Below are positions 241-27,724 of a stretch of DNA of 61,708 nt, piece by piece. Positions within the stretch are counted from its first letter, which is position 1. Each line of letters begins with the position of its first letter. Source of the stretch: a virus; the IMG/VR virus record IMGVR_UViG_3300047457_001340, positions 1 through 61,708 of that record; one strand, 5' to 3'. The notes under the pieces are model-generated. The model worked only from the letters and a program-made list of their open reading frames with translations, ran no database searches and was not told the origin of the DNA. A program made the translations under genes and the position numbers.

Positions 241-3200
241 CTATTTGATAGATTTAGCCTTTTTGAGAATTTCCTTGGCCCTCTCCACCTTAATTTGAGC
301 CTTGAGTAGGCGCATGGTGTAGAACGATAGCTGCTCTTTCTCAAACTCTTCTTCAGCCTTGGCGAGCCTTTCCTTAATCTTTTCAGGCTTAAGCTCAAGG
401 ACATGGCCGGGCAAAACAGCCTTATTGGACATGGGCTTCTGAAGAAGGGCGTCCTTCTCATGGGCGAAGGGCTTACCGCCAGCAATGTCGTTGCTTGCGC
501 TTTCCATCTCACCATTTCGCTCAAGCTTATTGATGTCTATGTTGCCCATTCTTTCTTCAAGGTTTTCACCCCCAGCACTGTAGCCAGTGAGCCTGCTCTG
601 GTGCTGACGCGCCATGTTCATATGGTGTTCATAATGGTCCATGTGCTTCTCTGCACTATTGTCATCGCTTGCAGGGCCATTGAACAGGTCGCCTTGGCCC
701 GACTGCTTCAGCCTTGAAGCCAGGTATTTATGAGCCCTCGCCCTCTTAAGGTGGGCGTCCATGGCCTCTATGTGATCTTCTGCCGTCTTGGATGTCTCTT
801 CCCTATTTAGGAATGCTGAGGTCATCTTGCTTGGGACAGGAAGGGTGTTTCCGGGCTGGGGGGTAAAGCCCAATTGCTTGGGGGCCTTCCTATAGGACTC
901 CTTGTAAACAGTGTGGACATTCTTCTCTCCAAGGAAATTGGCCTTGGATTCTGGGGAATGGGTGATAATTCTTTCCACGCCGTGCTTTTTGGCATGATTA
1001 ATGACAGCCGTGAATAGATTCGCTCTCCAGTCACCGTGCATGTCATTGATCTTATCCAGCGCAGCAAGCTTTTCTGCGTCAACTTTTTGACCAGCAGCTT
1101 CTGCAGCTTCGAGCTGAGGGCGAATACCTTTATTCTCAAGGTCCGACTGCATCTCATCCACCACCCAAGTTTTAGGGTCTGAGGTATCCACTCGGGCCCA
1201 GCCGATGGTATTGAAGTTGACGGGGTGCCCACTTCTTTTGGATGTCTCGGTGATGCGGTCAAAGACGTTCTTCAGGGCTGGGTCGGCGTCAATTTCTTTT
1301 AAGCTGTCTGGTGTATGGTCAAGGCGAAAAACAACCTGATCTCCGCCCGTGGAGTTTTGCATAGAATCACTGCCCCATCTATCGTATGAAAGGGCGTATT
1401 TCTTTTTGGGTGTGGCATCAATCTTGTCTTGGATATCCTGAGCAGAAAGCTTGGGTTTATTGAAGTGCTTTTTCCAAGCCTCCTTCAGGTCTGGGTAAGC
1501 TCTATTCATCTTGTCGATGCCGATAGAGCCGCCATTGGCTTCTGCGTGCTCCTTCAACATATTCAGATGATGGAGGTCTTGCCCAAACTCATGCTCATTC
1601 TGCCTATTTGGGATGGTTTCGTTTAGGAAGCCTGCGATCTTTTTTTCTTTGTCTGATGCTTCTGCATGAGCCCTTTCTCTTTCAGACATCAGCCTTCTGG
1701 CTTCTTTATTGTTGATGCTGTCGATCTTCCCACGAACATGGTTGGGCAAGTAGTCGTAATCGTGCATCAATTCATCCATTTTATCGTTAGCCCTACTGTC
1801 AGCGATTTCGCTCTCTCTGTCAGAGAGGCTTTCGCTATAGCCGTCGTAAAGAGAATCCCTTAGGCCCTCTCCTTCTGGGCTATCAACGAAATCGGACTGA
1901 CTGTCAGAAAATCTATCGTCGAATTTGGGGTGGTCGCTGATGCTATATTCGTCGTGGTTGGCGTAGTCAATTTCTTTGGGATTGTGCTTTTCGTCATGCT
2001 CGTCTTTGGCAGCATCATAATCAACCCAATCACTGTCATCCTCTGGGTCAAACCTGTGCTCTCTCTGAAGGTAGTTTGCTACCTCGTCTTTATTGGAGTT
2101 TTTCCAGTCCTTAAAAGCTTTGCCAGTGATTCTTCCATTATCATCTTTGATTTCAGAAAGAGCGTCCATGCCCCTCTCAAGGCTTGGGTCATGATTGGGG
2201 TTTTCTTCTTTCCAATCATGTTTTTCTCTGAGGTAGTCGTAATAGTCGTCTAGATGCCTTTCGGCTTGTCTGCTACTACGCCTTCCGCCGAATATGGGGC
2301 CGATATCATTAACATACTCACTGAACGGATATTCTTCCTCAGCCTGCTCTCTCGCTTCGCCGGAGTCGTAAACATCCTGAATGATGCTATCTCTATGCTC
2401 GTCTTTTAAGTGTTCTTTAAAGTTATCGAGATCATACCCATCATCTTGGTCGTCATTTTCCCACTTATGCCACATTTCCACGGCATGTTTTGGGTCTATG
2501 TGCTCGTTATTGAAGAGATTAAGCTTTGCGTTTTCTGTGCCGTGGCGTTTAATGTGCTCAGCCTGCTCGTCAGAAAGGTGCGGTGAACTTGCTAGGGTCT
2601 TCTCGTAGTCATAACCGTAGCCTTCGCCGCTTTTATAGTTGTCTTCGCCCCAGCTTGCCGTGGCAGGATCGAAGCCCTCCTCATCGGCATCGACATGCTT
2701 TCCGCCAGCGATGCCAAGCTTTTTGTCGATAAACTCTTTTCTTTTGTCCTCTGGAAGCTTGGAAAGCAATCCATTTAGGGTGTATTTGTTGCTGGGGACA
2801 CCCTTATCCAAGTGTTTTAAGATAGCGTCTATGTCTTGGTTTTTTTCGTGAGCCAAGGCTTTGGCTTGAGTGTCTAATGGGACATTCTTTTGGCTGGCTA
2901 GATAGCCGACGCTATCCTGAGACACGTCTGGGTGATTCAAAGCCTCGTCTAGAATTTGTCTTTTGGAATATTCCCCAACATTTTCAGCCTTATGGGTGTG
3001 CTTAATGATTTTATGGAGCTGATCTGGGGTGACACTCTTGTTTCGGACAAGAGCCATCAACTCATCTGAATCCAAGGTTTTGTTTAAAACATGATCTACC
3101 AGCTTATCATCGACATTGGCCAGTCTTAAAAACTTGTCAGCATCATGTCCCGGCGACCCACTGTGCTTCTTTCTGAGCGCCTCGTATATTTTCTTGTTGT

Positions 3201-3399
3201 TTGCCGGGGTATTGTGCTCAGACTTTTGCCAACGCAAATCACTATTGTTGCTATCATCATACCAGTCAAACTCATGAGCCTTATGGCCGTATGCTCCTGT
3301 GAGGAGATTGACATACTCCTCTTTGGTGAGTCCATTTTTAATGTACTCATTGGCTGCCTCTTTATCATCTCCATTTAGGATTCCATGTACCTTAACCAC
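241..3399 (-). CDS. Giant modular virion-type protein with EMQSD domain
   Basis: A 1052-residue hydrophilic protein rich in Asp, Glu, His and Tyr. Residues 100-200 look like short helical repeats, 240-560 are very acidic, and 670-855 form a distinct domain with VVDEMQSD, DWRANLF and ERIITHSPESK. I recognise this layout from the (E)EIQSDW domains of phage and plasmid polyvalent proteins, whose activity is not established. The C-terminal 80 residues are charged coiled coil. The start is GTG, overlapping the stop of the upstream palm-domain gene by 8 nt, so the two are probably translationally coupled. Its size and place at the end of the neck/fibre gene run suggest a protein carried in the particle; that is inference. 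Confidence 0.7.
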   Translation of the reverse strand: MVKVHGILNGDDKEAANEYIKNGLTKEEYVNLLTGAYGHKAHEFDWYDDSNNSDLRWQKSEHNTPANNKKIYEALRKKHSGSPGHDADKFLRLANVDDKLVDHVLNKTLDSDELMALVRNKSVTPDQLHKIIKHTHKAENVGEYSKRQILDEALNHPDVSQDSVGYLASQKNVPLDTQAKALAHEKNQDIDAILKHLDKGVPSNKYTLNGLLSKLPEDKRKEFIDKKLGIAGGKHVDADEEGFDPATASWGEDNYKSGEGYGYDYEKTLASSPHLSDEQAEHIKRHGTENAKLNLFNNEHIDPKHAVEMWHKWENDDQDDGYDLDNFKEHLKDEHRDSIIQDVYDSGEAREQAEEEYPFSEYVNDIGPIFGGRRSSRQAERHLDDYYDYLREKHDWKEENPNHDPSLERGMDALSEIKDDNGRITGKAFKDWKNSNKDEVANYLQREHRFDPEDDSDWVDYDAAKDEHDEKHNPKEIDYANHDEYSISDHPKFDDRFSDSQSDFVDSPEGEGLRDSLYDGYSESLSDRESEIADSRANDKMDELMHDYDYLPNHVRGKIDSINNKEARRLMSERERAHAEASDKEKKIAGFLNETIPNRQNEHEFGQDLHHLNMLKEHAEANGGSIGIDKMNRAYPDLKEAWKKHFNKPKLSAQDIQDKIDATPKKKYALSYDRWGSDSMQNSTGGDQVVFRLDHTPDSLKEIDADPALKNVFDRITETSKRSGHPVNFNTIGWARVDTSDPKTWVVDEMQSDLENKGIRPQLEAAEAAGQKVDAEKLAALDKINDMHGDWRANLFTAVINHAKKHGVERIITHSPESKANFLGEKNVHTVYKESYRKAPKQLGFTPQPGNTLPVPSKMTSAFLNREETSKTAEDHIEAMDAHLKRARAHKYLASRLKQSGQGDLFNGPASDDNSAEKHMDHYEHHMNMARQHQSRLTGYSAGGENLEERMGNIDINKLERNGEMESASNDIAGGKPFAHEKDALLQKPMSNKAVLPGHVLELKPEKIKERLAKAEEEFEKEQLSFYTMRLLKAQIKVERAKEILKKAKSIK

Positions 3400-4789
3400 G
3401 TTTTGTCATCTCCAGCATGATTCTGCGAACATATTTGGGGTCCATATTGTTTTCGCGGGCATACTTATCAGCAGCCTTGTAAACCTCACTCACCTGATCT
3501 CTGGACCTATCAATCCTCATTTGGCGTTCGTCCGTTGGGAATTCGTCTTGATCTTCTTGGGGGGCTTCTTGCTCTTGCGGTGCCTCTTCTTGTTGTTGTT
3601 CTTGTTCAGGGGCTTCCTGTTGAGGTTGGGCAGAGTCTTGCTCTGGAGCCTCTTGTCCTTGGGCGTAGGGGTCTTGGCCTTCTTTTAGGGCTTCTGTGTT
3701 CTGATTGGGCTCTCTTAATGCCACCTGCATCTTGGCGGAGTCGGTCGTGTCCTTGTCCTTTAGGCGCATCTCGATTTCTTGGTTGGTGGAGTCGTCATAG
3801 GTGACTACTTCGCCTTTACCCCTGAGCTTGCCTAAAGTTTTGGCACGGGTGGATTCACTGATCTTTTTGCCGATGCCAATGGTCGCGGTGACATTAGCTC
3901 TAGTGACATAATCTTCTTGTAGGTTTTGGATGAAATTAAGAGCTGTAGATGGGAGCTTGGCCATCATTTCGGTGCCATTGGCGGTGAGGATGGTGCCGCC
4001 CATTTGAATCACCCAAGCTTTAAAAGCCTCTTGGCCAGCATTAAGGCCTTCTGATCTGGCAATCAGCTTAGCCTCATCGTCTTGTAGGGCGGTGCGATCA
4101 AAGGTGTCAACGGAAGAGGTTTTTTCTAGGTCTGCCTCGGCAACATGATTTACAACATAGTCATGGTATTCATTTGGGGACATTGAGCCTACAATACCTG
4201 AGTAATGGTGAAGTCCCGCATATTTAAGAGTCTTAACTGCGATATGCTGCTTGTCTAGCTCACGGTCCTCAAGCGTATTCAGAACCCGCATCGCCTTCTT
4301 ATGGTCTGGGTGTTTAGAAACACTGATTTTTAGGTTACTTAAGCCATCTTCCGACTTAAAGTAGGCCTTGGTTTCCTTCTCTGCCTCGGTCTCCTTATTC
4401 TCTTCACTGAGCTTCTTGACCTGAGCTTCTACTTCTTCACTGTATTCGACAATCTTGTCTTTGCCGGTGAGCTTAGCACCAATCAGGGCCGTTTCACCGT
4501 GTCTCAGTGTGGTCCCAACGCCAACAGAGAGGGTGAAGCCTGTCTTTTTGGCATAGGCCGCCCTCAGCTCTTCAAGCTTTTTGGTTTCAATATCTTTGAA
4601 ATAGAATCTTGCTTCATCTCCGCCGTAGGAGATCATTTCGCCGCCATTGGCCTTAACCCAATCGGCAATGAGGGTTTCGCCCGCCTCAATGATGTTGGCG
4701 ACTTCCTTCACCTTGGCGGGGTCATCGGACATCACTGCCCTTCCAACTCTACTTCCAGCATTGTCTGCATCGACTGAGCAAAACTTCAT
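3392..4789 (-). CDS. Tandem GGDEF/Cas10-type palm protein (putative nucleotide cyclase)
   Basis: 465 residues. Residues 1-125 have the signature of the nucleotidyl-cyclase palm fold of GGDEF enzymes and minimal CRISPR polymerases: an initial SVDADNAG strand with two Asp, YGGDEARFYF at about 55-64, LSVGVG at about 88-93, then AKLTGKDKIVEY. Residues about 235-345 repeat the layout (FKAWVIQMGG, ANGTEMMAKL, TATIGIG, LGKLRGKGEVVTY), but the GGDE is replaced by NGTE, so the second copy should be catalytically dead. A Gln/Glu-rich linker (about 375-425) and a helical tail follow. Such active/inactive palm pairs resemble Cas10 architecture. ATG is chosen because GGAG lies 5 nt upstream; a GTG two codons earlier is the alternative. 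A diguanylate-cyclase-like role is possible, but no input or output domain is visible. Confidence 0.65.
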   Translation of the reverse strand: MKFCSVDADNAGSRVGRAVMSDDPAKVKEVANIIEAGETLIADWVKANGGEMISYGGDEARFYFKDIETKKLEELRAAYAKKTGFTLSVGVGTTLRHGETALIGAKLTGKDKIVEYSEEVEAQVKKLSEENKETEAEKETKAYFKSEDGLSNLKISVSKHPDHKKAMRVLNTLEDRELDKQHIAVKTLKYAGLHHYSGIVGSMSPNEYHDYVVNHVAEADLEKTSSVDTFDRTALQDDEAKLIARSEGLNAGQEAFKAWVIQMGGTILTANGTEMMAKLPSTALNFIQNLQEDYVTRANVTATIGIGKKISESTRAKTLGKLRGKGEVVTYDDSTNQEIEMRLKDKDTTDSAKMQVALREPNQNTEALKEGQDPYAQGQEAPEQDSAQPQQEAPEQEQQQEEAPQEQEAPQEDQDEFPTDERQMRIDRSRDQVSEVYKAADKYARENNMDPKYVRRIMLEMTKRG

Positions 4790-4791
4790 AA

Positions 4792-5211
4792 TCACTCCGT
4801 GTCCGCTGAGAGAGTCAGGTAAACCGTGTATGGGGCATCCATCATGGGCTCAGCCCCAAAGCTCTCATTGGCAGAACCAATCTGGGCGGTTTGCTTCACC
4901 GCTTCTTCAGATTGCTTCCTTTGTTGTACGCGATCAAGTAACTCCCTGAGAATCTGGATTGCTGGACCAATTCGGTCGTCTATAGTAGGATTTGGTTCCT
5001 GCTCCATGGACTCCTCATCGGCAATGGCCTGAAGGTCGCTCCCCATTCCATTAATGTAGTCGGCCACCTCTGGCAGCGTTGAGAACTGCGCCAGATTCAA
5101 GTCTTGGGCTACCTGTGGGTTTCCACCTACAACATCGAATCCGCCAGCCTCGTTTTCGGCAAGCATCACTAGGGGCTGTCCACTTTTTTGGCTGACAATC
5201 GTTAAGTTCAT
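4792..5211 (-). CDS. Hypothetical protein between virion genes
   Basis: 139 residues. The N-terminal 50 residues look like a small beta sheet (MNLTIVSQKSGQPLVML, then GGFDVVGG); the C-terminal part is helical and Gln/Glu-rich. I start it at ATG, five bases after the stop of the upstream gene and behind AAGAGATAG, rather than at a further-upstream in-frame ATG inside that gene. It ends 3 nt before the palm-protein start, so it belongs to the same transcript. Family not recognised. Confidence 0.65.
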   Translation of the reverse strand: MNLTIVSQKSGQPLVMLAENEAGGFDVVGGNPQVAQDLNLAQFSTLPEVADYINGMGSDLQAIADEESMEQEPNPTIDDRIGPAIQILRELLDRVQQRKQSEEAVKQTAQIGSANESFGAEPMMDAPYTVYLTLSADTE

Positions 5212-5215
5212 GAAA

Positions 5216-6934
5216 CTATCTCTTTTTAATAATCTGAGCGGCCTTGCGTTTGATATCAATGATGAAAGCTTCCCTGCTCTCATCATCCCACTTCTTGTCG
5301 AAGGAGAGTTTTAAACTCTTTTTTACCGAATCAAATTTCATCTGTGGTTTTGGGAGGCCTGTGTAGCAATCGCAAAAGATTTCGCCACTGCCACAATCTT
5401 GACAGTCACCTTGCTCCTCATCCATACTCTTAGCTAGGTCTCTGGATGAGATTGATACTTGGGCGCTTTTTTTGATCTCATTGAACTGTGGCAGCTGTTT
5501 AATCTTGCCAGACTTCAATGATTCGAGGGCGTGGTTTTTTAATGACTCAAGTTCCTCATTGAGATCTGAGTAGTCAATGTGTTCAGACAATCTGTTTTTG
5601 AGGTCCTTGATTTTGACGCCCAGTTCTTTTCTTTGCTTGCCTGCCTCTACTAAGTCATCTTTATGGGATGGGGACTCAAGCACATTGATAAGCCGTTTGT
5701 GCTCATTGGTAAACTCTTTCTCGTCCATTTTAATGGATTTACCCATAAATTCCTTAACCTTCCCGTGCTTGATGAAGTGCTCGGTGTCTGCTGAGACATT
5801 AGAGAAATCATCGCCACTTTCCCATCCGTCATGATGAACCATGAAAGATGTGTGGGGGTCGTAAATAGAGTCTTTAATCATGTTGCGAAGAGTTTTATTG
5901 GCGGGATGCTTGGGGTTGTTTAAAACACTCTCTGCCGCAGCAACCTCGTTACCGCCCGCAGATCCTACTTTGATATACCCTCTTTTCAATGCTTCAAATT
6001 CGTCACCCTCTTTATTGGCGATCCAGTCTTCATGGTATTCATTTGGCTTAAGGCGATTAAACTTTCCATCAGGAGAAATCCATCCATGGAAAGAGTCATT
6101 GCCTGAGCCATAGGTGTGCTTTTTGATGTCGTTTGTGGGCTTCAGCTGCTGAAGCGTTACTCTCATTGCTTCGGGAGGGGTGCCGTGAACATATACCATT
6201 TTGGTTTTGTGCTTATTTGCTTCATCAATGGCTTCGTTCAATTCTGCGTTGGTGGGGGAATGAAGATGCTTGCCGATCATGTGGACATGATCTTCGTGAG
6301 TGGCATGAAAAACATGAACACCCTTCATGGTGCCATAGTAGTGGGGATGTCTGTCGTCTGAGCGCTCCAGTGGCTCCGGGTTCACTGCAAGCTGAAACTT
6401 ATGGCCTGAGGGAAGGAGAGTGAAGTGGTTGTCGTAGTGGCCTCCGTGGGAAACGCCTACACCCGGCTCACTCTTTCTACCATCTCCAAACACAAAATGA
6501 TTTGTGAGATATGACGAATGAAGGACGGATGTTTGGTTATATTTGTTTCCAAGGGCTTCAAGCTTTTTCTTGTTCTCTTCAGAGCCGTCATGGGGCACCA
6601 TGTAGCCCTTTTCTTCGGTGTCATATTTGCCGTGAGTCTCAACTGGCTTCAGTCCATGGGCAATAATATCTTGTTTCAGCTGTCGATGAGCCTCTTCGTT
6701 GTGCTCTCCACCAGTCTTTTGCGCAGAAAGGCAGGTGAAATGGTCTGGTAAAACAAGATCTCCTTTGGGCTTCACTTCTCCCGACAGGTGCTTGTGATAG
6801 TGGTCTGGGAGTGGCCAGTGGTCGAGACCTTTAGGTGCGCCCGACTTATCCCAATAGTCGCTTACAGCTTTTGTTTTGGGATCAAAGTCTGGTGTTATAG
6901 TGGATTTGGACAGGGTCTTGTGTTCTTTGGCCAT
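5216..6934 (-). CDS. Modular protein with one GWISPDG domain
   Basis: About 572 residues. Residues 70-190 (LSAQKTGGEHNEEA, HGKYDTEEKGYMVP, YNQTSVLHSS) resemble the spacing of DUF3293-like phage proteins, a tentative link. Around 285-400 lies FHGWISPDGKF, LKPNEYHEDWI, GYIKVGSAGG and NPKHPANKTLR, clearly homologous to two domains in the 986-residue protein. A predicted coiled coil follows, then a small cysteine cluster (CQDCGSGEIFCDC) near the C-terminus that could bind zinc. Start: ATG with GGTGG upstream, preferred over a GTG eight codons earlier. Probably a virion component, judged only from its neighbours. Confidence 0.65.
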   Translation of the reverse strand: MAKEHKTLSKSTITPDFDPKTKAVSDYWDKSGAPKGLDHWPLPDHYHKHLSGEVKPKGDLVLPDHFTCLSAQKTGGEHNEEAHRQLKQDIIAHGLKPVETHGKYDTEEKGYMVPHDGSEENKKKLEALGNKYNQTSVLHSSYLTNHFVFGDGRKSEPGVGVSHGGHYDNHFTLLPSGHKFQLAVNPEPLERSDDRHPHYYGTMKGVHVFHATHEDHVHMIGKHLHSPTNAELNEAIDEANKHKTKMVYVHGTPPEAMRVTLQQLKPTNDIKKHTYGSGNDSFHGWISPDGKFNRLKPNEYHEDWIANKEGDEFEALKRGYIKVGSAGGNEVAAAESVLNNPKHPANKTLRNMIKDSIYDPHTSFMVHHDGWESGDDFSNVSADTEHFIKHGKVKEFMGKSIKMDEKEFTNEHKRLINVLESPSHKDDLVEAGKQRKELGVKIKDLKNRLSEHIDYSDLNEELESLKNHALESLKSGKIKQLPQFNEIKKSAQVSISSRDLAKSMDEEQGDCQDCGSGEIFCDCYTGLPKPQMKFDSVKKSLKLSFDKKWDDESREAFIIDIKRKAAQIIKKR

Positions 6935-6981
6935 AAGGTAATTATCCACCGAAAACACTAGAATTGACTTATGGTTACGCC

Positions 6982-7794
6982 TTAAACAGAGCCATCTTTA
7001 GGCTCTGGTCTGTCGGAAGGACCCACCTTGTCGTAGGGGTCGTGTGGAATGAAGTCCTTTCGAACAACTGCCAACTGAGGGAAGCGCTGTTGAATAGAAT
7101 TTCCATCTTTATCAAGGGTTTGCGTAGCCCTAATCTGATGGGGCAGGCCTATGACGGTGAAAACTGGTCTGGTGTAATAGTTGACCGAATAGATAATCCC
7201 ATTACCTGTGACAGGGTCATATCCGGGCCTTTCTCCAACCCACTCTAAGTACCCTTTTTCATTAATAATTACATCGACCCCAACCCGATACTGGACGCCA
7301 TAGGCATCCATAATGAAGTCAATACTTTTAGCTGGAAAGTGGAGCTTGTCGATTCCTGTCTGACTATGCTCTACAAGCTGATAGTAGCGAACCGTGTAGT
7401 CTGGCACCAAGATCTGATCAAAAAACTGAACATCAAGCTCCGTACCGTCATCGTAGGTAGAGGGAAGGACAATCGTGGCCTGATCGATGTCATAAGAACC
7501 ATTCATCACGAATTGGCGCTGATTACTATTGCCCTGAAAGGCTCCAATAAAAGCCCGCTCGCCGTAGTAGATAAAGCCGTTGTGGCAATCGGTACATCCG
7601 GGATCATGGTCCCCATCATGAATACTTAAGCGCCTCGGACATGGCACAGGTCTTGAATGCACCATGCGAATGCCCTTACTTTTAATCAGCTCATTGAAGG
7701 AATCTGGGTTCATTCCTGCCTGAGGCTGGCCACTGGGCTGCTGACCAAGGAGCTTGGATGGGAGCTTAATGTTTGGAATTTTTGGCTGCGACAT
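6982..7794 (-). CDS. Putative virion neck/tail-completion protein
   Basis: 270 residues with a Pro/Gln-rich N-terminus, then VPCPRRL and PGCTDCHNGFIYYGE (possible CxxC zinc site), followed by a beta-rich body with many Tyr, Val and Ile. The C-terminus is polar and disordered. The gene overlaps the end of the muramidase gene by 29 nt and sits between that gene and the 572-residue modular protein. Its place downstream of the head-tail connector is typical for a neck or tail-completion protein, but no family motif is visible. Confidence 0.55.
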   Translation of the reverse strand: MSQPKIPNIKLPSKLLGQQPSGQPQAGMNPDSFNELIKSKGIRMVHSRPVPCPRRLSIHDGDHDPGCTDCHNGFIYYGERAFIGAFQGNSNQRQFVMNGSYDIDQATIVLPSTYDDGTELDVQFFDQILVPDYTVRYYQLVEHSQTGIDKLHFPAKSIDFIMDAYGVQYRVGVDVIINEKGYLEWVGERPGYDPVTGNGIIYSVNYYTRPVFTVIGLPHQIRATQTLDKDGNSIQQRFPQLAVVRKDFIPHDPYDKVGPSDRPEPKDGSV

Positions 7795-8263
7795 TTCTCA
7801 TGGCCTTCAGGTGCTTATCGAACCTTTTAACATAGTTGTGGTTGACTATTTCTGTTTCAGAAACCTTATTCACTTTATTTGGTCCAAATAACCAGCTATA
7901 AGCAGCTCTCTTGGGTCCAAACTTCTTTCTCAGAGTGCTCCAGTAGTACATCGCAATCTCCCTATCCATCTTTCGATTATGATTGAGGAGCTTTGTGATG
8001 GCCGAATTAGAGAGAGGTAGGATGTTTCCGTACTTCTTTCTTAGGTCCTTTGATCTTAGAACCAAGTCTCTGGCAGTGATTGGCATCAGACCATACCACC
8101 CACCAGCCCTAGTTCCCTTGTGCATCCCACCCTCAATCACTCTATGATTCAGGAAGATACCGCCCTTAGTTTCAACAAGGGCAATTGAGTTCAATTCGTT
8201 GTCAAATGATGCGAAAGCTAGTTGCGAAAAAAATAATGTTAAAACAATACAAGCATTAGTCAT
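7766..8263 (-). CDS. Secreted lytic transglycosylase-like muramidase
   Basis: 165 residues beginning with a Sec signal peptide (hydrophobic residues 4-17 ending AFA), so the product should reach the periplasm. The mature part has the goose-lysozyme/SLT layout: catalytic Glu in IALVETKGG, the GLMPIT segment, a helical lobe, then AAYSWLFG. The same domain occurs inside the 986-residue protein (ASIESSDG, GLMPIT, AYAWRNG), so these are paralogues in one genome. The likely substrate is peptidoglycan glycan strands, in host lysis or entry. The start ATG overlaps the upstream stop as ATGA. Confidence 0.75.
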   Translation of the reverse strand: MTNACIVLTLFFSQLAFASFDNELNSIALVETKGGIFLNHRVIEGGMHKGTRAGGWYGLMPITARDLVLRSKDLRKKYGNILPLSNSAITKLLNHNRKMDREIAMYYWSTLRKKFGPKRAAYSWLFGPNKVNKVSETEIVNHNYVKRFDKHLKAMRNVAAKNSKH

Positions 8264-9086
8264 TCAGGTTAGATTTGATCTTCCTGATATGCTCGATTAC
8301 CCTCTTCCCTTTCTCAATACGGGTATTCGACTCCGACTTATGGAGTTTCACTTGATGTGGCTCCACATACGCAACATCGTTGGTGCCACCCACTTGCACC
8401 TTGATTTTATTGGGTACATTTGGGTTGGTTGGGCGAACTATGGCCAACTTGTTGTGTAGCGCAGTTCCATGCGCGTCGATTCTTACCGTACTGCCGGGGA
8501 TATGCTGCTTGGCGATATGCGGCTGTGCGGTGAGAGCTTGGTTTGAACCTGATTTTTCTTTTAAATTTGGATTGGACATCTTCACTCTGGTTGTGAAAAC
8601 AAACTCGCCACTCTTTTTGTCAGTGGCATAGTGATAGTGGTCCATGTCCTTGTCTTGAAATGCGTGGGTAGCCTTAATTTGGTCGTGAGGAGGTAGCTCG
8701 GAGTAGTGCTTGTAATCGTATTTGGGGTTCAACCCCGCTGGCTTATCTTGGGGATAACTCACTGCCTTTTCAAAGGACTCGCCCTTATTTAGCTTTCTTT
8801 GTCTGGACAATACTCGATTATATACATGATTGGCGCGGTCAAAATAAGGCTTGACGCTTGGGTGGAAATCTGCGGCCTCACTGTGCTTTCCTTCAGAAAT
8901 TAACTGCTTTACGTGGTCTTCGGAGTGTTTCTGTGCCTTACTAATCAGAGCCCTGGCGTGGTGAACTCTTCCAATTCTCAAAGCATCGAAAGCCTGAGCT
9001 AAGCGGTGAAAAATATTCTGATAATGGCTTCTGTTTTCTACGCCATCGTCTCCAAAAAATGGTGATGCAGACTTATTTTTACTCAT
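8256..9086 (-). CDS. Hypothetical basic virion-associated protein
   Basis: 276 residues, His/Lys-rich. Residues 20-110 are helical, with a tetratricopeptide-like look (AFDALRIGRVHHARALISKAQ). The second half is beta-rich, ending in VGGTNDVAYVEPHQVKLHKSESN. It contains KGESFEKA and KSE segments resembling linkers in the other large virion proteins. GGTATAAC lies 12 nt upstream of the start with AAGAGAAG between, so it heads a transcript that runs on into the muramidase. No family recognised. Confidence 0.6.
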   Translation of the reverse strand: MSKNKSASPFFGDDGVENRSHYQNIFHRLAQAFDALRIGRVHHARALISKAQKHSEDHVKQLISEGKHSEAADFHPSVKPYFDRANHVYNRVLSRQRKLNKGESFEKAVSYPQDKPAGLNPKYDYKHYSELPPHDQIKATHAFQDKDMDHYHYATDKKSGEFVFTTRVKMSNPNLKEKSGSNQALTAQPHIAKQHIPGSTVRIDAHGTALHNKLAIVRPTNPNVPNKIKVQVGGTNDVAYVEPHQVKLHKSESNTRIEKGKRVIEHIRKIKSNLND

Positions 9087-9124: not shown

Positions 9125-9538
9125 TTATAACTCACCATAAACCGTAATAGCTCTGGGCAAGATGGCGATCTTCTTATTGGAGCCCTCGGAAACCTCTACC
9201 TTGAGAGTGCTAGACACTAAGGCCTCTGTTTCTGAGGAGGTTAGGGGAATTTTGTAAATTGAATTGTCACCAACGAATGCCACCACGGCGGATCTGGTAA
9301 GGGTTGGATTTGATCCTACTCTGGTATTATTTGGTCCAGCAGACACTTCATCCATTCTAGGAATAACAAGCTGAACGGTCGCTCCGGGGGAAGGAATGTA
9401 CCTTAGGCCGTTTTGGTCCTGATCCACAAGCTGGACAAAAATTTCAGCTGTTTCTCCCCTGACAATTTCAACACTTGAAACATGTTTGAAACAATTTGCT
9501 GTCGCACCAGAATTTAATAATTTTAAACCAAGTCTCAT
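9125..9538 (-). CDS. Beta-rich virion protein
   Basis: 137 residues of alternating polar and aliphatic residues (VEIVRGETAEIFVQLVDQD, then ATVQLVIP, KVEVSEGS and AITVYGEL), an Ig-like or BppU-type beta-sandwich pattern common in phage neck, baseplate and fibre proteins. It starts 2 nt after the connector gene ends, and the pair is probably co-translated. No catalytic motif. Role inferred from fold pattern and position only. Confidence 0.6.
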   Translation of the reverse strand: MRLGLKLLNSGATANCFKHVSSVEIVRGETAEIFVQLVDQDQNGLRYIPSPGATVQLVIPRMDEVSAGPNNTRVGSNPTLTRSAVVAFVGDNSIYKIPLTSSETEALVSSTLKVEVSEGSNKKIAILPRAITVYGEL

Positions 9539-9540
9539 AA

Positions 9541-10365
9541 TTAAAACGCCGTGAATTGAAGGTCCGTTCCGTAGTGGGCCTTCAACTGCATCGTGAGCTT
9601 ATCTCTCTCTGCTGTTAGCTCCTGAAGCCTTTGAGAAAGCCACTGAGGTCCTGCATTGCCAGTGCTTTGAGAAAGGCCGTCGATACCTACGCCAAACGAG
9701 TTAATGGGGAAAATGGCGGGCCCCATCTGTGAAAGAACAGCAATGGCGGCCATAACGCCAATGCAATGATTAACAATGTGTGGAATCTTATCGTTCTCAA
9801 ATCCTGCAACATAAGTGATGCGCCAGACATTGGGCCACATCTGCTGCCCACCCAGTGCCAATGCGCGGCCAGTGATGGAGAAAACAAAGTTGGCATCGGC
9901 GTTATTGATGGAGCCTGAGGTGGGGACAATGCGGATTAGGCCATTATCTTCTTGGGTGGTAACCCAATCGGTGGGGTAGGAGTATTCCTGTCCTTCCGCT
10001 CTTCCCGGCCAGAGGGCCTCAAGCTTCTCTACCTTCAGAAGAGGCCAGCGTGCCAGCCTGTGCGGAGAAAACTCCATGTCATCTGGACGCTTGAAGTCAA
10101 ACTTCTCTACATTTCTAACTGGGCTTACTGGGATTCTGATGGAAGATTCAAATTCAGACACTGCAGTGAGAATGAAATCCTGCAAGTCTTCGTCATCAAG
10201 CTCGTCATCTGTCATTGCTGCCTTGAGCGGCACTCCAAACAGATACTTCTTCTTGAACTTCTTTGGGCTCAGAAGCGGTCCCACTCTTGTGAAGCTGGGG
10301 TCTCCATTGCCTTGGTTTAGGGGTGTTGGCTGCCCAATCACTGGGCTGTCCTTTGAATCTGCCAT
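9541..10365 (-). CDS. Head-tail connector protein (gp6-like)
   Basis: 274 residues. KYLFGVPLKAAMTDDELD, LQDFILTAVSEFESSI, RIPVSPV and later WRITYVAGFENDKIPHIV with a C-terminal helix pair match the pattern I know for gp6-like/adaptor proteins of long-tailed phages, which bind the portal and form the neck ring. TACAAT ends 6 nt before the ATG. Because YLFGVPL precedes the internal Met, I keep the long form, which overlaps the subtilase C-terminus by 161 nt in another frame. If the internal Met (10215, preceded by AAGG) were used, the overlap would shrink to 11 nt. Confidence 0.65.
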   Translation of the reverse strand: MADSKDSPVIGQPTPLNQGNGDPSFTRVGPLLSPKKFKKKYLFGVPLKAAMTDDELDDEDLQDFILTAVSEFESSIRIPVSPVRNVEKFDFKRPDDMEFSPHRLARWPLLKVEKLEALWPGRAEGQEYSYPTDWVTTQEDNGLIRIVPTSGSINNADANFVFSITGRALALGGQQMWPNVWRITYVAGFENDKIPHIVNHCIGVMAAIAVLSQMGPAIFPINSFGVGIDGLSQSTGNAGPQWLSQRLQELTAERDKLTMQLKAHYGTDLQFTAF

Positions 10366-11047
10366 ACCTATATTGTACTAGCAAACCCTTAGGGCCATAA
10401 TTGGCCTTAAGCCAATTTTCGGCCTCTTTACAAGTAGATGTGGGGTGCTCTTGGAAGTAGCGGATGGCAACTCCACCCATTCGGGCTGCGCTGAATGAGG
10501 TGCCTCCTGCATCTTTGGGCGACCTTTCTAGGTAGGTGTCGCCAGCGTTGGCTATGGGGTCCTTGTTGCCCTTAATGGTTGTAGATACAGAGACAAGGCA
10601 GGGCAGGTCATACTTGGCTGGGAATCCGGGCTCGTCTAGGCCCTCATTTCCAGCTGCCACCACCACGAGTATGCCGCTGGAGGTGGCTCTTTTGATTGCA
10701 GAAAACTCAGCAATATCGGGTTTTTGTCCATTAAGGGAGAGGGATATAACTTTGGGTTTTTTGTCAGTAGCCTCTTCAATTGCCTTGGGAAGGTCCGAGA
10801 TATTATGCCAAATAACTTGCTCAGCCCTCACTGGCTTGACATCCTCAATGCTGAGTTGGTCATCGAGGGATTGGGCGACCTGTGTCCCATGGACATTCCA
10901 GCAGGCCTCTGGCCTATTGATGGGCATGTTCAAATAGCCAGTGTGTGACTTGGTGTTTCCCGTATCAACCTGAATGATTTCTATACCGTCAGCTAGGGCT
11001 GAGGTAGATAAAGACAGTGCTATTATGTATTTGACCCAATTGCTCAT
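10205..11047 (-). CDS. Secreted subtilisin-like serine protease
   Basis: 280 residues. A signal peptide (IIALSLSTSALA) is followed by a minimal S8 peptidase: Asp in IEIIQVDTGN, His in WNVHGTQVAQ, oxyanion Asn in VVAAGNEGLD and nucleophile Ser in GGTSFSAARMGG. The core closes near QYRYGRF, after which about 50 Pro/Gln/Ser-rich residues overlap the connector gene in another frame. The presence of all catalytic elements and a signal peptide implies an active periplasmic or surface protease. ATG chosen; a TTG two codons earlier exists. A TACAAT element sits 5 nt upstream and there is no Shine-Dalgarno. Confidence 0.85.
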   Translation of the reverse strand: MSNWVKYIIALSLSTSALADGIEIIQVDTGNTKSHTGYLNMPINRPEACWNVHGTQVAQSLDDQLSIEDVKPVRAEQVIWHNISDLPKAIEEATDKKPKVISLSLNGQKPDIAEFSAIKRATSSGILVVVAAGNEGLDEPGFPAKYDLPCLVSVSTTIKGNKDPIANAGDTYLERSPKDAGGTSFSAARMGGVAIRYFQEHPTSTCKEAENWLKANYGPKGLLVQYRYGRFKGQPSDWAANTPKPRQWRPQLHKSGTASEPKEVQEEVSVWSAAQGSNDR

Positions 11048-11059
11048 GTACAATTGTAC
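11048..11059 (-). promoter_or_regulatory. Palindromic TACAAT start-site element
   Basis: A perfect 12-bp palindrome, GTACAATTGTAC, directly abuts the ATG of the subtilase gene. It contains TACAAT ending 5 nt before the start codon, so it could be both -10 element and operator. No ribosome-binding site separates it from the ATG, consistent with a leaderless transcript. Confidence 0.45.
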
Positions 11060-15369: not shown

Positions 15370-15789
15370 TTAGGGATTAAAGAACCTGTTGCCAGACCTT
15401 GGGGCAAAGATTTGAAAATGCACCCAGTTGGGCGTAGCACTAAAGCTCTCGCACCAAAGGCCCGCCTGCTCAAGTGTGGACACATTCGCCAAACACCAAG
15501 CCTGAAGCTCTTGGTTGGGGTCGGAGATATCCAAAGCCGCACCCTTTAAGTGCTGCGATTTCATAGGCACCTTAGATTCATCGAATGGGACTCCAGCCTT
15601 CTCAGCTTTTTCCCTATAGATTCTCAGGTGATCGGCCATGGTTCTCAGACCTGAAGTCACGGTCATTGGCTTGCCGTAGGCCTCCCTGATCTTATTCACC
15701 TTGGCAATGAGGATTGCTAGGTTTGCCCTCACATCCTCGGGCTGATCTTCAAGCTTTGCGCCTTTTAAAACTTCCTTGAGGGTAATCAT
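15370..15789 (-). CDS. M15-type murein peptidase (endolysin candidate)
   Basis: 139 residues with the zinc-binding layout of the peptidase M15/VanY family: TVTSGLRTMADHLRIY, then SQHLKGAALDIS (SxHxxGxAxD) and WVHFQIF with the second metal His. Such enzymes cut D-Ala-containing peptide bonds in peptidoglycan. No signal peptide, so export would depend on the holin, as for a classic endolysin. ATG overlaps the end of the 986-residue gene by 4 nt. Best endolysin candidate of the window. Confidence 0.85.
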   Translation of the reverse strand: MITLKEVLKGAKLEDQPEDVRANLAILIAKVNKIREAYGKPMTVTSGLRTMADHLRIYREKAEKAGVPFDESKVPMKSQHLKGAALDISDPNQELQAWCLANVSTLEQAGLWCESFSATPNWVHFQIFAPRSGNRFFNP

Positions 15790-18746
15790 TGTTTAAACTT
15801 TCCGTGTTTAGCAAAGTGATCAACACTCACCCCCACATGAGACTCGGATGGAGTATGGGTGTCGCCATAGTGGTAGATGTCGCCGTTCATAGTTTGACCG
15901 GGATAAGCATCGCCAAAAATCTGACGAAGCTTCAGGGTGGCTGGGTGCCTCTTATTTGCGATAATGGGGTGAGCAGCGCTAAAGCTTGCGTCTCCGCCGT
16001 GGCCAACAGCAATCCAGCCAGAGTCAAGAGCCGCTGTGGCATTCTCTCCGGTTTTTTCGGCAATCCAATCCATGTGAGACTCATTGGGCTTCATTGGGTG
16101 AAAGTCACCCTCTGGAGATACCCAACCGTGAAGCTTTCCAGATTTACCATCGAAGATGTGCTTATTAAGCTTATTAGTAATTTCTTGAGCCTTTTTTAGC
16201 TTAGATGGGATGCTCTCATCAAACCAGTCTGCCGGGTTTTCTTTAGGAGCTTCTTTCTTGCCGCCCTCAATCACTTTGATTTGTGATTGAACCTTTTTGT
16301 CAGCTTTCTTCTGCTGAAGGCGCTTTAATTGAGCCTCACCCTCTTCTTGGGAAATCTCCACGCCCGTATCTGGGTTATGCCAATTATTGTCGGCAAAACG
16401 CTCCAGCTGAGATTGGGTCATGTTCTTGTGGGGAGACTTGACCTTTTCAAGCTCCTCGCTCTTGTTCATTTGTCCGCTGAGCTTGTTAAACTTCTGAACA
16501 TAGGGGTGGGAGTCGATCTGTTCTTGGGTCGCATTCTTGGCGGCTGTAATGCCATTGCGCCAAGCGTAGGCCATTCTAGGCTTATCGCCACCAAACACAT
16601 GATGTAGCCTGTCCCAGTGGTGATTAGCTATGTCCGCCTCGATGCTGGGGTTATTATTGAGGTGTTGCGTGATCTGGTCACTGGACATGGAAAGGATGTT
16701 TGAGTGTCTCTCCATGAGCTTTGGGTTTTTCTTAATAGCCTCTTTCACCGTAATGGGCATAAGTCCAGTAGAGCCTGCTGCTGTATCTCCAGCATTCAGG
16801 CCTACGGTCGTCTTCTGATGCTTCTTATTTTTTCCGTCAGACGACTCAATAGAGGCAATGTGCCTGAGACTGCCTTTTAGCTCTACCTTGGGGGACACAC
16901 GGGCGGGAACCACGCCTGCACTGGGTGAGGTTGGGGTGGCCATGGCGGTGGCAGATAAGATGGCTAGACCCGCTGCAGCATCCTTCAATGCCCCCTTATC
17001 TAGCTCACTCTTGTCTATATTGGCACTCTTGATCTTGCCGTATTTGGCAAATGTATTGGTGTCGGCTTCATGGAATTGCCAATTATCACCCTGCTCCGGC
17101 TTAATAGTGACACCAAAGGTGGGGCCCCAATGTTTGTGAGCAAGCTCCCTCAGCTTTAGGGTTGCTGGGTGCCTTCTGTTGCCAATAACAGCGTGGTGGC
17201 CAGAAGCCTCTTCCATTCCGGCATGGCCAACCGATATCCACCCCTGATCATAAGCATCCGAAATGGAGCTGATACCATGGCCATTGCGTATAACATCCAA
17301 ATGGTCCTCATGGGGCTGCATGTGGATGTAATCGCCTTCCGGCGTAATCCACCCATGAACCTTGGCGGGAGTGCCTAAGTGGTAATCAACTTTGTCTAGC
17401 GATTCGGGTTTGACCGCCTGCCTTCTGGCAAGCTCCGTCTTTTTATGCTCTATCTCTTTGGGGTCCACGAAATATGAGCGCGGCGGTTTTGAATACTCTT
17501 CAATCTGATCGGCCAACATGGTGGTTGGAGTAGAGGCTGTGTAATCTTTAATTCCATGTTTCTCATATAGGTTTCTAAGATGTATTTTAAGGTCCTGATT
17601 ATCAAATAAATCCAGAGTAGATGAGGCGCGGCTTCTTTTAGCAAATCCGCCCATATCCATGATTTTGAGTTCGCCCTTTGCATTTCTTCCTAATTGAATG
17701 TTATCAATGGGTTTATGCCCGGCAACAAATGCATCATGAAGGCTTTCTCTGACATGAGCAAGCTCGTGCTCGTTTAATTCTCCGTCTTTAATGGGGGTGA
17801 GAGATTCTCTAGCCAGATAAAGCTTATCCCCTTTTCTCCAAGTCCCGTGATGTTTGGGAGTGAGGGGATTTCCTGCCATGCCGGTGATGGCATCGTGCTC
17901 ACTCATGATGTCTCCGCGAGCTTCAGCCGGGGTTTTCTTGGGATTAAACTTGTTATATGGGGTAGTTTTGGAAACCTTTACAACTACATCTGGGGTGGCC
18001 TGATAAACATGGCCCTGATGTCCACTTCCTAAGTATTTCCAATCGTGAGTCTGAAATAATGGAGTTCCCCAATCAGCGCCTTTCTCAAGCTCTTCGGACT
18101 TGCCGAATTTGCGGTTGGGCTGGTTCCAGAAAGCCTCGCCATCTGGCTCCTGTATATCAGAGCGGATTATCTTTAACCCGCTTTTCTTCTCGGCTAACAC
18201 ATACATAGCCGATCCAAGCCCCTTCCGTTGATGCTCTTCGTCTACCCACACGGAGAAATTGCCAGTACCATCTATGGGGTGTAGCGCAGAGCCCTTTTCT
18301 CTAAAAAGAGCCTCTCCGACCTCATTGCCATTTGAGTCATGGGCTGATAGGCTGTGTATTTTCTTTCCTTCTCCTGAATCATCCTTCCAAGAGCGGTAGT
18401 AAATTTTATACCCCTCCTTCTTCCAATCCCCATTCTTGCCCTTGTCGAGGTCCTCGGCCTTATTCAAAAGGCCTGAGGCCTTCATGGACTCAACGACTTG
18501 GTCCATCACCTCTTTGGTAGGCTCAGCTCCCATAGCCTGCATGACAGCCTTAAAGCGGTCAGCCTTATTTGGAATCTGAGAGACCTGCTGAACCAGCTCA
18601 GGTGGGAGCTTCTCTGCTTTAGGGTCTAAGATCTGAACTAGGGCTGAGACCTGAGAAAACGTAGCGGGGTCCTCAAGGTCCGATTCCTTGAGGTTTGCGG
18701 CTAGGTTTATAAGCAGTTCTACAAGCTCGTTTTGGGGGATGGGCAT
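15786..18746 (-). CDS. Polyvalent protein: GNAT, kinase-like, muramidase and two GWxxPEG domains
   Basis: About 986 residues from the ATG (a TTG six codons earlier is possible). In order: helical region 1-100; GNAT acetyltransferase-like region about 115-215 with VWVDEEHQRKGLGSAM; kinase-like domain about 235-390 with GSGHQGHVYQA loop, VVVKVSK, an EHDAI helix, NIQLGRNAKG and IMDMGGFAK in place of HRD and DFG; GWITPEG domain about 460-575; hydrophobic Ala-rich stretch; SLT-like muramidase about 626-760 (ASIESSDG, GLMPIT, AYAWRNG); coiled linker; GWVSPEG domain at the C-terminus. Modules are joined by KSEELEK-type linkers. Likely packaged in the particle and released in the host, by analogy to other giant polyvalent phage proteins. 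Confidence 0.75.
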   Translation of the reverse strand: MPIPQNELVELLINLAANLKESDLEDPATFSQVSALVQILDPKAEKLPPELVQQVSQIPNKADRFKAVMQAMGAEPTKEVMDQVVESMKASGLLNKAEDLDKGKNGDWKKEGYKIYYRSWKDDSGEGKKIHSLSAHDSNGNEVGEALFREKGSALHPIDGTGNFSVWVDEEHQRKGLGSAMYVLAEKKSGLKIIRSDIQEPDGEAFWNQPNRKFGKSEELEKGADWGTPLFQTHDWKYLGSGHQGHVYQATPDVVVKVSKTTPYNKFNPKKTPAEARGDIMSEHDAITGMAGNPLTPKHHGTWRKGDKLYLARESLTPIKDGELNEHELAHVRESLHDAFVAGHKPIDNIQLGRNAKGELKIMDMGGFAKRSRASSTLDLFDNQDLKIHLRNLYEKHGIKDYTASTPTTMLADQIEEYSKPPRSYFVDPKEIEHKKTELARRQAVKPESLDKVDYHLGTPAKVHGWITPEGDYIHMQPHEDHLDVIRNGHGISSISDAYDQGWISVGHAGMEEASGHHAVIGNRRHPATLKLRELAHKHWGPTFGVTIKPEQGDNWQFHEADTNTFAKYGKIKSANIDKSELDKGALKDAAAGLAILSATAMATPTSPSAGVVPARVSPKVELKGSLRHIASIESSDGKNKKHQKTTVGLNAGDTAAGSTGLMPITVKEAIKKNPKLMERHSNILSMSSDQITQHLNNNPSIEADIANHHWDRLHHVFGGDKPRMAYAWRNGITAAKNATQEQIDSHPYVQKFNKLSGQMNKSEELEKVKSPHKNMTQSQLERFADNNWHNPDTGVEISQEEGEAQLKRLQQKKADKKVQSQIKVIEGGKKEAPKENPADWFDESIPSKLKKAQEITNKLNKHIFDGKSGKLHGWVSPEGDFHPMKPNESHMDWIAEKTGENATAALDSGWIAVGHGGDASFSAAHPIIANKRHPATLKLRQIFGDAYPGQTMNGDIYHYGDTHTPSESHVGVSVDHFAKHGKFKQ

Positions 18747-18769
18747 GTCCCTATTATCCCCCAAAAACC

Positions 18770-25661: not shown

Positions 25662-25669
25662 ATACTGGA

Positions 25670-25678
25670 GTTATACGG
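25670..25678 (-). promoter_or_regulatory. CCGTATAAC motif of dnaB, leaderless type
   Basis: TTGATTCCGTATAAC on the minus strand ends 8 nt before the dnaB ATG. As a -10 element it would place the transcription start at or beside the A of the ATG. Confidence 0.55.
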
Positions 25679-25752
25679 AATCAAGATTTACATTTTTCTT
25701 GTTGCATCTGATATAAAATAGCTGTATGCTTGTTAGTAAGGAGATGACAGAA

Positions 25753-26352
25753 ATGGAAAACGCAAACAATATTACCGAATCCAAAAGAGCCCAAGCCACC
25801 AGAGCAAGCATTCTTGCAAGCGTCAAGAAAATCACCGAGCCTAAGGGCGATACTGTTGTTCTGAATTCCTTTAAAGAAAAGGCCGATGAGCTGAATGAGC
25901 TTTTTGCCCTGTCTGAGCTTCTGGACATAAAGAAGGCTGAGCTGAAGGAGGAGATTAAGGCTCTGCGCCGTGGTGATGAGTATTCATCGTCCTACGCTTT
26001 AGTGGGCGAGTCCACCCCCGGTGTGTCTATTGCTTTCTCTGACAGCGGGACCATAAAAGAGGCTGACATACCCCTTTTGAAACAGCTCACTGGGGACAAC
26101 TTTGGAAACTGGTTTACGGAAGAACGGTCTCTTGAGCTTAAGGGACTGTCTGCTGAGGCCACTGACAAGATAGTGGCGGCCCTCATCGGTGTTCTTGGGG
26201 TTGATGGTTTTAAGAATGCTGTGAATTACAAAGTCCAAGCCACCACCAAGAAAGGCTTTGATAAGCTTCAGTTCAACCTGAGCAATGAGATCAAATCGGT
26301 CATCAAGATGCGGGAGCCCACAATCTCCTCCGCTAAAAAAGACTACAGATAA
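25753..26352 (+). CDS. Hypothetical protein divergent from dnaB
   Basis: 199 residues, mostly helical, Lys/Glu-rich, with DELNELFALSELLDIKKAELKEEIKAL and a C-terminal DKLQFNLSNEIKSVIKM. ATG chosen with AAGGAG 9 nt upstream; two earlier in-frame ATGs have no usable site. It opens a plus-strand run with the PagL-like and dUTPase genes; ATATAAAAT about 33 nt upstream is the likely -10. Possibly replication-linked by position; no family recognised. Confidence 0.6.
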   Translation: MENANNITESKRAQATRASILASVKKITEPKGDTVVLNSFKEKADELNELFALSELLDIKKAELKEEIKALRRGDEYSSSYALVGESTPGVSIAFSDSGTIKEADIPLLKQLTGDNFGNWFTEERSLELKGLSAEATDKIVAALIGVLGVDGFKNAVNYKVQATTKKGFDKLQFNLSNEIKSVIKMREPTISSAKKDYR

Positions 26353-26369
26353 TCATTAGTTGAGCGCAT

Positions 26370-26378
26370 CGGTATGAT
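26370..26378 (+). promoter_or_regulatory. CGGTATGAT motif, leaderless type
   Basis: GCATCGGTATGAT ends 5 nt before the GTG start of the PagL-like gene. The intervening AGAGG touches the start codon and is too close to serve as ribosome-binding site. Confidence 0.5.
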
Positions 26379-26383
26379 AGAGG

Positions 26384-26833
26384 GTGAGAAAGATTCTTGC
26401 CCTCTTTTTTTTATATTCAACACTGACATATGCCGATGAACAGTCCACTCTTCGGGTGGGTGCCATGGACAATGACAGGCTGGTCACATTTGGGGCTCAA
26501 TCCAACCTCATCAGCGATTACATCTATACCAACTGGGAAGTGGGGACCTATTATAGCCCTTCCATGAGGTCTTTTTTGGGGTTCTATGGCGGTGGGGTGC
26601 GGGTGGATGCTGGTGACATTCTTGCTCAGGTGGGCATTGCCCTTGGTGGAATCACAAGCACCGATGAATACCTTGGGGGGCATCTCCAGTTTACTGAAAA
26701 CCTTTTCTTGGGACTAAAAAGCCACCGTGATGCTGCCCTCGGGGCTTTCTTTAAACACATCAGTAGTGGCGGCATTTCAAGCCCCAATCTGGGGAGAAAC
26801 TTTGTTGGGATTGAAATCAGAATCCCCCTGTGA
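26384..26833 (+). CDS. PagL-like outer-membrane lipid A deacylase
   Basis: 149 residues. A signal peptide (ILALFFLYSTLTYA) is followed by short amphipathic strands and Gly/aromatic turns of an eight-strand barrel. Near the C-terminus, FFKHISSGGISSPNLGRNFVGIEI matches in pattern the PagL active site HxSxxGIxxPNxG, with His125 and Ser127 and a following Glu. PagL removes the 3-O-linked acyl chain of lipid A in the outer membrane. A phage copy could alter LPS to block superinfection or ease exit. Length is close to mature PagL. Identification rests on this motif and topology only. Confidence 0.6.
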   Translation: MRKILALFFLYSTLTYADEQSTLRVGAMDNDRLVTFGAQSNLISDYIYTNWEVGTYYSPSMRSFLGFYGGGVRVDAGDILAQVGIALGGITSTDEYLGGHLQFTENLFLGLKSHRDAALGAFFKHISSGGISSPNLGRNFVGIEIRIPL

Positions 26834-26839
26834 GGCAAT

Positions 26840-27497: not shown

Positions 27498-27499
27498 CG

Positions 27500-27703: not shown

Positions 27704-27724
27704 CCCCCAACCATATCTCAATTT

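Follow-up and report, generated by a model that had tools for sequence, protein, structure and literature searches.

Modular proteins among the neck genes

The complete IMG/VR record IMGVR_UViG_3300047457_001340 (61,708 bp; hereafter the window) carries at one end, between positions 241 and 9086, a cluster of genes for modular proteins, with a polyvalent protein encoded further inside. We propose that these genes probably form a head-cargo cassette of a myophage related to SPO1, whose products would be processed and injected. A preliminary description had grouped them as five consecutive genes for giant proteins that share domains and linkers and sit with neck genes; all the open reading frames it named are present, on the minus strand.

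241–3399, minus strand: EMQSD protein, 1052 residues, acidic centre (open reading frame call)
3392–4795, minus strand: palm protein, 467 residues; intact mCpol N-terminus, degenerate second palm, acidic linker, helical C-terminus
4792–5286, minus strand: small open reading frame between the palm and GWISPDG genes, start probably at 5211
5216–6958, minus strand: GWISPDG protein, 580 residues; S-adenosylmethionine (SAM)-lyase-like N-terminal domain and GWISPDG domain
6982–7794, minus strand: neck protein within the cluster, homologue of SPO1 gp6.4 (phrog_1004, E=8e-16)
7766–8263, minus strand: small muramidase/lytic-transglycosylase-like protein, 165 residues, hydrophobic signal-like N-terminus
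8256–9086, minus strand: basic protein, 276 residues, C-terminal LHKSE motif
9125–9538 and 9541–10365, minus strand: two neck genes (phrog_772 and 442) with orthologues in Myxococcus phage Mx1
15786–18764, minus strand: polyvalent protein, 992 residues; domain order GNAT, kinase-like, GWISPDG, lysozyme, GWISPDG

Judged by its genes, the window phage is a myophage distantly related to SPO1, and the contig is a fragment of its genome. The major capsid protein has ∼32% identity to SPO1-group phages and 29% to Mx1, and the placement is also backed by the portal, protease, terminase and neck genes. The late genes occupy the minus strand, and the cluster marks the end of the contig, at the place expected for the tail sheath. 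The product of 9541–10365 is a homologue of SPO1 gp6.3/adaptor, and that of 6982–7794 matches SPO1 gp6.4 (E=1e-13) and Mx1 31028–31846 (30% identity). These two genes and 9125–9538 have Mx1 homologues in the interval from major capsid protein to sheath, which confirms the reported neck setting. The series is not one of five consecutive genes, as the neck protein 6982–7794 and the small open reading frame 4792–5286 interrupt it, and giant size is confined to the EMQSD and polyvalent proteins. Domain sharing holds for the GWISPDG protein and the muramidase, each with the polyvalent protein, and not for the palm, EMQSD and basic proteins. The muramidase matches residues 633–761 of the polyvalent protein (E=2e-20) and is also homologous to domains in the giant proteins of Mx1 and two of the IMG/VR relatives described below (G009 and G012), with the catalytic-type Glu kept in five of five.

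5750–6136, minus strand: GWISPDG domain of the GWISPDG protein (residues 275–403), with two copies in 15786–18764 (BLASTP E=8e-22 and 5e-13)
18087–18332, minus strand: GNAT-like domain of the polyvalent protein (Pfam E=0.003; tblastn to Tunturi_5)
16482–16868, minus strand: lysozyme domain of the polyvalent protein (homology to Mx1 and to the muramidase)

With several unrelated enzymatic domains predicted in one protein and a location near late virion genes (major capsid protein to neck/sheath), 15786–18764 resembles polyvalent proteins in domain content and gene position. Its kinase-like region was assigned by eye only, and the best match in a PDB search was a Dot/Icm effector at E=0.3. It is well established that polyvalent proteins occur near virion genes, and a 2017 study described head-located ones that carry GGDEF domains (PMC5512222). 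As in that work, unrelated enzymes (GNAT, kinase, lysozyme, ART, GGDEF-type) are joined near late virion genes; its text has GGDEF and not the term 'SAM lyase', and the sections covered do not mention mCpol. A further difference from what those sections describe is that a prohead-type motif, and not a metallopeptidase domain, is proposed here to separate the units. The polyvalent-effector reading of the preliminary description is partly supported; polyvalent-type domains (GNAT, lysozyme) are present.

A scan with a gp6.4 alignment retrieved seven further IMG/VR records, five of which contain Pfam mCpol matches, and the suggested comparison with related phages showed that the cassette recurs from neck to sheath in Mx1 and in the IMG/VR records G009–G013. 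The mCpol match of G009 (E=6.5e-6) is to a separate GGDEF protein, and its palm-position gene was found through the Mx1 palm. In SPO1, which is without these insertions, the neck genes gp6.3, 6.4, 7.1 and 7.2 lie almost side by side with the sheath 9.1; in Mx1, large enzyme-bearing proteins are inserted among them. Before gp6.4, Mx1 has a 1479-residue GNAT/ART-PolyVal/NUDIX/lysozyme protein (24404–28843) and a 619-residue GNAT/HipA-PI3K-like protein; after it come the palm protein and, immediately ahead of the sheath, a SAM-lyase-like protein. In the relatives, GNAT/kinase/lysozyme giants adjoin gp6.4, and Pfam ART-PolyVal, NUDIX and HipA/PI3-kinase-like domains are carried additionally. The palm gene lies between gp6.4 and the sheath in Mx1, G010, G011 and G012 and adjoins gp6.4 in G009; a palm match is present in G013, together with a SAM-lyase-like domain found by phmmer, and this domain also occurs in Mx1, G010 and G011. 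The order is neck, palm, gp7-like genes, SAM-lyase-position gene and sheath in G010 (169.6 kb) and in G012, whose gene in that position has no SAM-lyase match, and palm, Mx28564 homologue, SAM-lyase-like gene and sheath in G011. The window differs in having the SAM-lyase-like gene ahead of the palm gene; cassette content therefore appears to be conserved more than order.

A separate GGDEF gene is found in the head module, between protease and major capsid protein, in Mx1, G009 and G010. By these domain matches, a palm-type cyclase and a SAM-lyase-like domain recur together in head modules, arrived at in different ways. G012 is an exception, as its palm is inactive by sequence and no GGDEF match was obtained. 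Strict complementarity between an active mCpol and a separate GGDEF gene, which Mx1, G009, G010 and the window fit, was rejected, as G012 breaks the rule. A 408-residue head-module protein of G010 (L049:6110–7336) has a GGDEF cyclase domain fused to a SAM-lyase-like domain, joining two activities that are separate genes in the window.

One alternative to the cargo reading is that the proteins belong to the neck and tail as structural or assembly parts, their enzyme folds having been co-opted as scaffolding, and do nothing inside the host. The location among neck genes suits it, as does the frequency of lysozyme domains as baseplate-type tail parts; we nevertheless consider it unlikely, as domain content is shuffled between the phages, unlike that of structural parts, and as a distinct GGDEF gene is retained in the head module of Mx1, G009 and G010. 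Another is that expression of the genes follows infection and their products work in the cytoplasm, outside the particle, in late anti-defence or lysis roles. Late genes can indeed yield cytoplasmic products, and the muramidase 7766–8263, with its signal-like N-terminus, could be a lysis enzyme, but positions between neck genes are kept across distant phages, and we give this second alternative only a slight chance.

A motif shared by proposed cargo, scaffold, portal and protease

In an unbiased count of tripeptides in 23 head-module proteins of Mx1, KSE came first (17 versus 2.5 expected from shuffling, p=1.6e-9). It was also first in Mx1 and the window combined; the window alone gave 13 versus 4.4 (p=7e-4, rank 12). 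In the rest of Mx1, K[SA]E was at background (20 versus 19.7 expected). When a hydrophobic residue two positions before the Lys was added, the resulting motif, [ILMVF]xK[SA]E, occurred 16 times versus 1.4 expected in Mx1 and 14 times versus 2.25 in the head and late genes of the window, with 2 versus 1.7 in the remainder of the window. The phages outside the motif definition (G009–G012) served as a replication set: in G010 the head contained 18 versus 1.8 and other regions 2 versus 3.2, and the counts were 8 versus 1.5 in G009, 9 versus 1.05 in G012 and 7 versus 0.4 in G011. Head genes of close relatives had 12 versus 2.8 (elsewhere 5 versus 3.1). Other Glu motifs that were counted ([IL]xE of T4, SxE and AxE) showed no enrichment.

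By class, the motif was enriched about tenfold in cargo proteins (40 versus 3.96 expected, p=2e-26) and strongly in portal, protease and scaffold (25 versus 1.58, p=1e-21), with no enrichment in shell, neck and sheath (3 versus 1.15, p=0.11); the p-values overstate the case because homologous phages are not independent and the cargo and structural classes were assigned after the motif had been noticed. The contrast is large in most phages and weakest in G009 cargo (2 versus 0.6). The linkers said to be shared are thus real in a specific sense, as recurrent K[SA]E motifs far above chance, and only proteins of the head cargo, scaffold, portal and protease show this recurrence. In the polyvalent protein the motif sits between predicted domains, as it does in Mx1 (at residues 133, 610 and 1255). 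The Mx1 sites include LKKSE (610) and LEKSE (1255) of the NUDIX/ART/lysozyme giant and VQKSE (277) of the palm protein.

18453–18467, minus strand: LNKAE, before GNAT (residue 104)
18093–18107, minus strand: FGKSE, GNAT/kinase-like junction (residue 224)
17004–17018, minus strand: IDKSE, GWISPDG/lysozyme junction (residue 587)
16455–16469, minus strand: MNKSE, just after lysozyme (residue 770)
4349–4357, minus strand: KSE after the mCpol domain of the palm protein, without the hydrophobic residue two before Lys
6467–6475, minus strand: KSE after the SAM-lyase-like domain, weak motif form
33561–34304, minus strand: prohead maturation protease (phrog_1028; homologue of the Mx1 protease), three K[SA]E sites
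32393–33106, minus strand: probable scaffold, located between protease and major capsid protein, four K[SA]E sites

In the giant phages SPN3US and phiKZ, prohead proteases cleave behind AxE and SxE, and their substrates include ejection proteins and portal (PMC10052503, PMC5694885). Because the motif lies between domains, is shared with scaffold, portal and protease, and has these giant-phage protease precedents, we read it as a candidate prohead-protease site; [ILMVF]xK[SA]E fits cleavage after Glu, and the 33561–34304 protease is the proposed processing enzyme for the cargo. In line with what is proposed here, head and ejection proteins of T4, phiKZ and SPN3US are cut after a Glu-ending motif that is likewise present in scaffold and portal (PMC5694885, PMC10052503); the differences are the form of the motif, (hydrophobic)xK[SA]E, and the putative sites, which separate enzyme domains and are not restricted to N-terminal propeptides. 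If the proteins were neck or tail parts, the motif would have to be explained otherwise, as neck, shell and sheath are without it and the proposed cargo has it in common with scaffold, portal and protease; cytoplasmic products, too, would not be expected to carry a prohead-type motif that matches scaffold and portal.

The prohead protease is fused into a 1239–1362-residue protein in Mx1 (L002:5003–8722) and G010 (L049:1535–5623). The Mx1 fusion repeats a segment of the N-terminus of the major capsid protein (residues 226–285) ahead of further domains, which is possibly a capsid-targeting signal.

Palm and SAM-lyase-like domains

The preliminary description held that no member of the cluster had a clear assignment. 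This no longer applies to the palm protein, whose residues 5–118 match Pfam mCpol PF18182 (79 bits versus a cut-off of 26.4, E=4.5e-22), and is also weakened for the GWISPDG protein, whose SAM-lyase-like region is at a Pfam cut-off.

4424–4795, minus strand: D1, mCpol domain of the palm protein (residues 1–124); D9 and D60 align with OptS D6 and D57
3761–4096, minus strand: D2, degenerate palm (residues 234–345); predicted local distance difference test (pLDDT) of the model about 90
6479–6706, minus strand: SAM-lyase-like domain of the GWISPDG protein (residues 85–160; T3 SAMase alignment)

A PDB sequence search with the palm protein gave OptS/mCpol matches, and OptS was top-ranked by Foldseek for the palm model. 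Both catalytic Asp residues of OptS, D6 and D57, are needed (PMC12657218), and D60 of D1 sits in an intact GGDE. The D1 model superposes on OptS (9pd0_A) with Z 17.9 and a root mean square deviation of 1.6 Å over 118 residues. An AlphaFold2 model of residues 1–345, built from a five-sequence alignment, had a mean pLDDT of 71 and a predicted template modelling score of 0.60; D1 and D2 were each modelled with good local confidence, and their packing is a low-depth prediction from this shallow alignment. The tandem model superposes on both Cas10/Cmr2 palms (3ur3: 200 residues, 2.4 Å; other Cas10 entries vary), so the predicted arrangement, an intact mCpol followed by a degenerate palm, is Cas10-like. 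It differs from Cas10 in having the GGDE in the N-terminal palm and a degenerate C-terminal palm, with no other Cas domains or partners seen. Matches to padloc anti-phage models were limited to the mCpol part of CARF_HEPN_mCpol and, weakly, a subtilase.

The relatives' palm proteins align best with D2, not D1. Other mCpol scores above the cut-off came from G011 (38.8 bits) and G010 (30.4 bits), and both catalytic signatures are kept in only two of seven phages, the window (D1) and G011, being lost in the palms of Mx1, G009, G010, G012 and G013 and in window D2. This loss, in five of the seven palms, counts in favour of the structural alternative, and the alignments argue against cyclase catalysis as a universal role of the palm gene.

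The palm protein of the window contains an enzyme of a type with which bacteria produce immune signals. In fold and in both catalytic Asp positions, D1 agrees with the OptS/mCpol of Panoptes (PMC12657218, PMC12657230); it differs in being phage-encoded within a head–neck cassette, in its fusion to a degenerate second palm and in keeping the GGDE, which is nearly lost in OptS. No OptE/2TM-beta partner was seen among the flanking open reading frames, which are neck and cargo genes with no small transmembrane effector-like product, up to the contig end 240 bp past EMQSD. The Panoptes authors expect phage counters to Panoptes (PMC12657218). It is conceivable, if improbable, that packed mCpol is released from its fusion in the prohead and injected, and that it then produces or mimics the cyclic dinucleotide by which Panoptes-type defences are held inhibited. 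If so, the host death effector would stay inactive during the destruction of immune messengers by other phage proteins, and the phage would thereby counter a defence that senses counter-defences.

The SAM-lyase-like region barely reaches threshold for Pfam PF23780 (28.0 bits, cut-off 28). The same family scores below cut-off in Mx1 (23.1 bits), and 28.3 in a genome search or 25.6 by hmmscan in G010. In an alignment of window, Mx1 and T3, the columns of the catalytic Glu (T3 E68/Svi3-3 E69) and the B-loop Gln (T3 Q94, equivalent of Svi3-3 Q104) are invariant; the residue roles are taken from PMC7877911 and PMC12255297. Further matches of the GWISPDG protein are to DUF3293 and phrog_2226 (both E=2e-4), and a PDB sequence search with the SAM-lyase-like region gave no match to known SAM lyases. 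SAM lyases of phages act against restriction and BREX, and SAM-AMP, the type III CRISPR signal, is degraded by one phage enzyme (PMC7877911, PMC12255297). The window domain resembles T3 SAMase, Svi3-3 and the SAM-AMP lyase in its catalytic Glu and B-loop Gln, with a PF23780 score just at cut-off; it differs in being a predicted activity within a 580-residue head-module protein, whereas the known enzymes are small early proteins.

Proposed route of the cargo

Domain content, conserved placement and motif enrichment together make packaging, cutting and injection the likely fate of these proteins. The large modular proteins would be made late, alongside the neck proteins, and would enter the prohead together with the scaffold, where the prohead protease would cleave after Glu at interdomain sites of the form (hydrophobic)-x-K-(S/A)-E. 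The freed GNAT, kinase-like, lysozyme, mCpol and SAM-lyase-like domains would then be packaged and injected with the DNA. Lysozyme domains would aid passage of the DNA across the host cell wall, which is the safest guess among the injected functions; mCpol and SAM-lyase-like domains would alter nucleotide or SAM signalling of host defences. Such interference is plausible as an anti-defence action, and any specific target is speculative.

Several points weigh against this proposal, beside the post hoc classes noted above. The contig stops 240 bp past the EMQSD gene, and the sheath region thus lies beyond it. The palm and GWISPDG proteins have only the weak motif form behind their enzyme domains, and in the EMQSD protein enrichment is slight (3 K[SA]E versus 1.5 expected). 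The motif could also be a scaffold-binding or linker motif instead of a cleavage site; scaffold binding, the main alternative, would likewise mean head cargo.

If the proposal holds, a phage virion module would contain mCpol, the synthase of an alarm system that was only recently described in bacteria. We found no report of mCpol in such a module, or of this motif, in the open-access literature searched. The idea of polyvalent proteins as head cargo becomes directly testable, as the motif predicts exact new N-termini and Mx1 is a laboratory phage.

The EMQSD protein had no match in Pfam, PHROG, padloc, PDB or phage tblastn. Weak phage matches of its domain (E 0.5–6) were rejected, as two fetched loci lacked the motif, and its AlphaFold2 model (pLDDT 52) was too poor for structure search. 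A 1067-residue protein of G012 (L050:2868–6071) lies directly after the palm gene, in the EMQSD position, with no detectable similarity to EMQSD. The small open reading frame 4792–5286 had no significant Pfam or PHROG family match. In viral contigs, back-translated patterns of the palm, EMQSD and GWISPDG proteins retrieved nothing closely related; a neck gp6.3 alignment, a single gp6.3 sequence and a degenerate DNA pattern retrieved no relatives, and none of palm D1 or of the major capsid protein was found among the bacterial genome contigs searched. Portal relatives (G001–G007) were set aside as neighbourhood sources, as they do not extend to the neck region.

The Mx1 cassette includes a Phage_L5_gp82-type protein (L002:24792–25706, E=8e-33), and the basic protein of the window may occupy a similar place. 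A subtilisin-family protease is encoded in the neck/fibre region (window 10205–11053, Pfam Peptidase_S8 E=3e-11), and in one of the portal relatives (G005, L016) a further subtilase lies downstream of the major capsid protein. Between the protease and portal genes, 35584–37164 matches a PHROG 'DNA transfer protein' (phrog_1745, E=3e-93). The helicase and terminase reading frames (23076–25661 and 45640–48792) contain mutually similar intein-like insertions (E=4e-9), and the DNA polymerase reading frame (54192–58562) has a LAGLIDADG endonuclease match inside.

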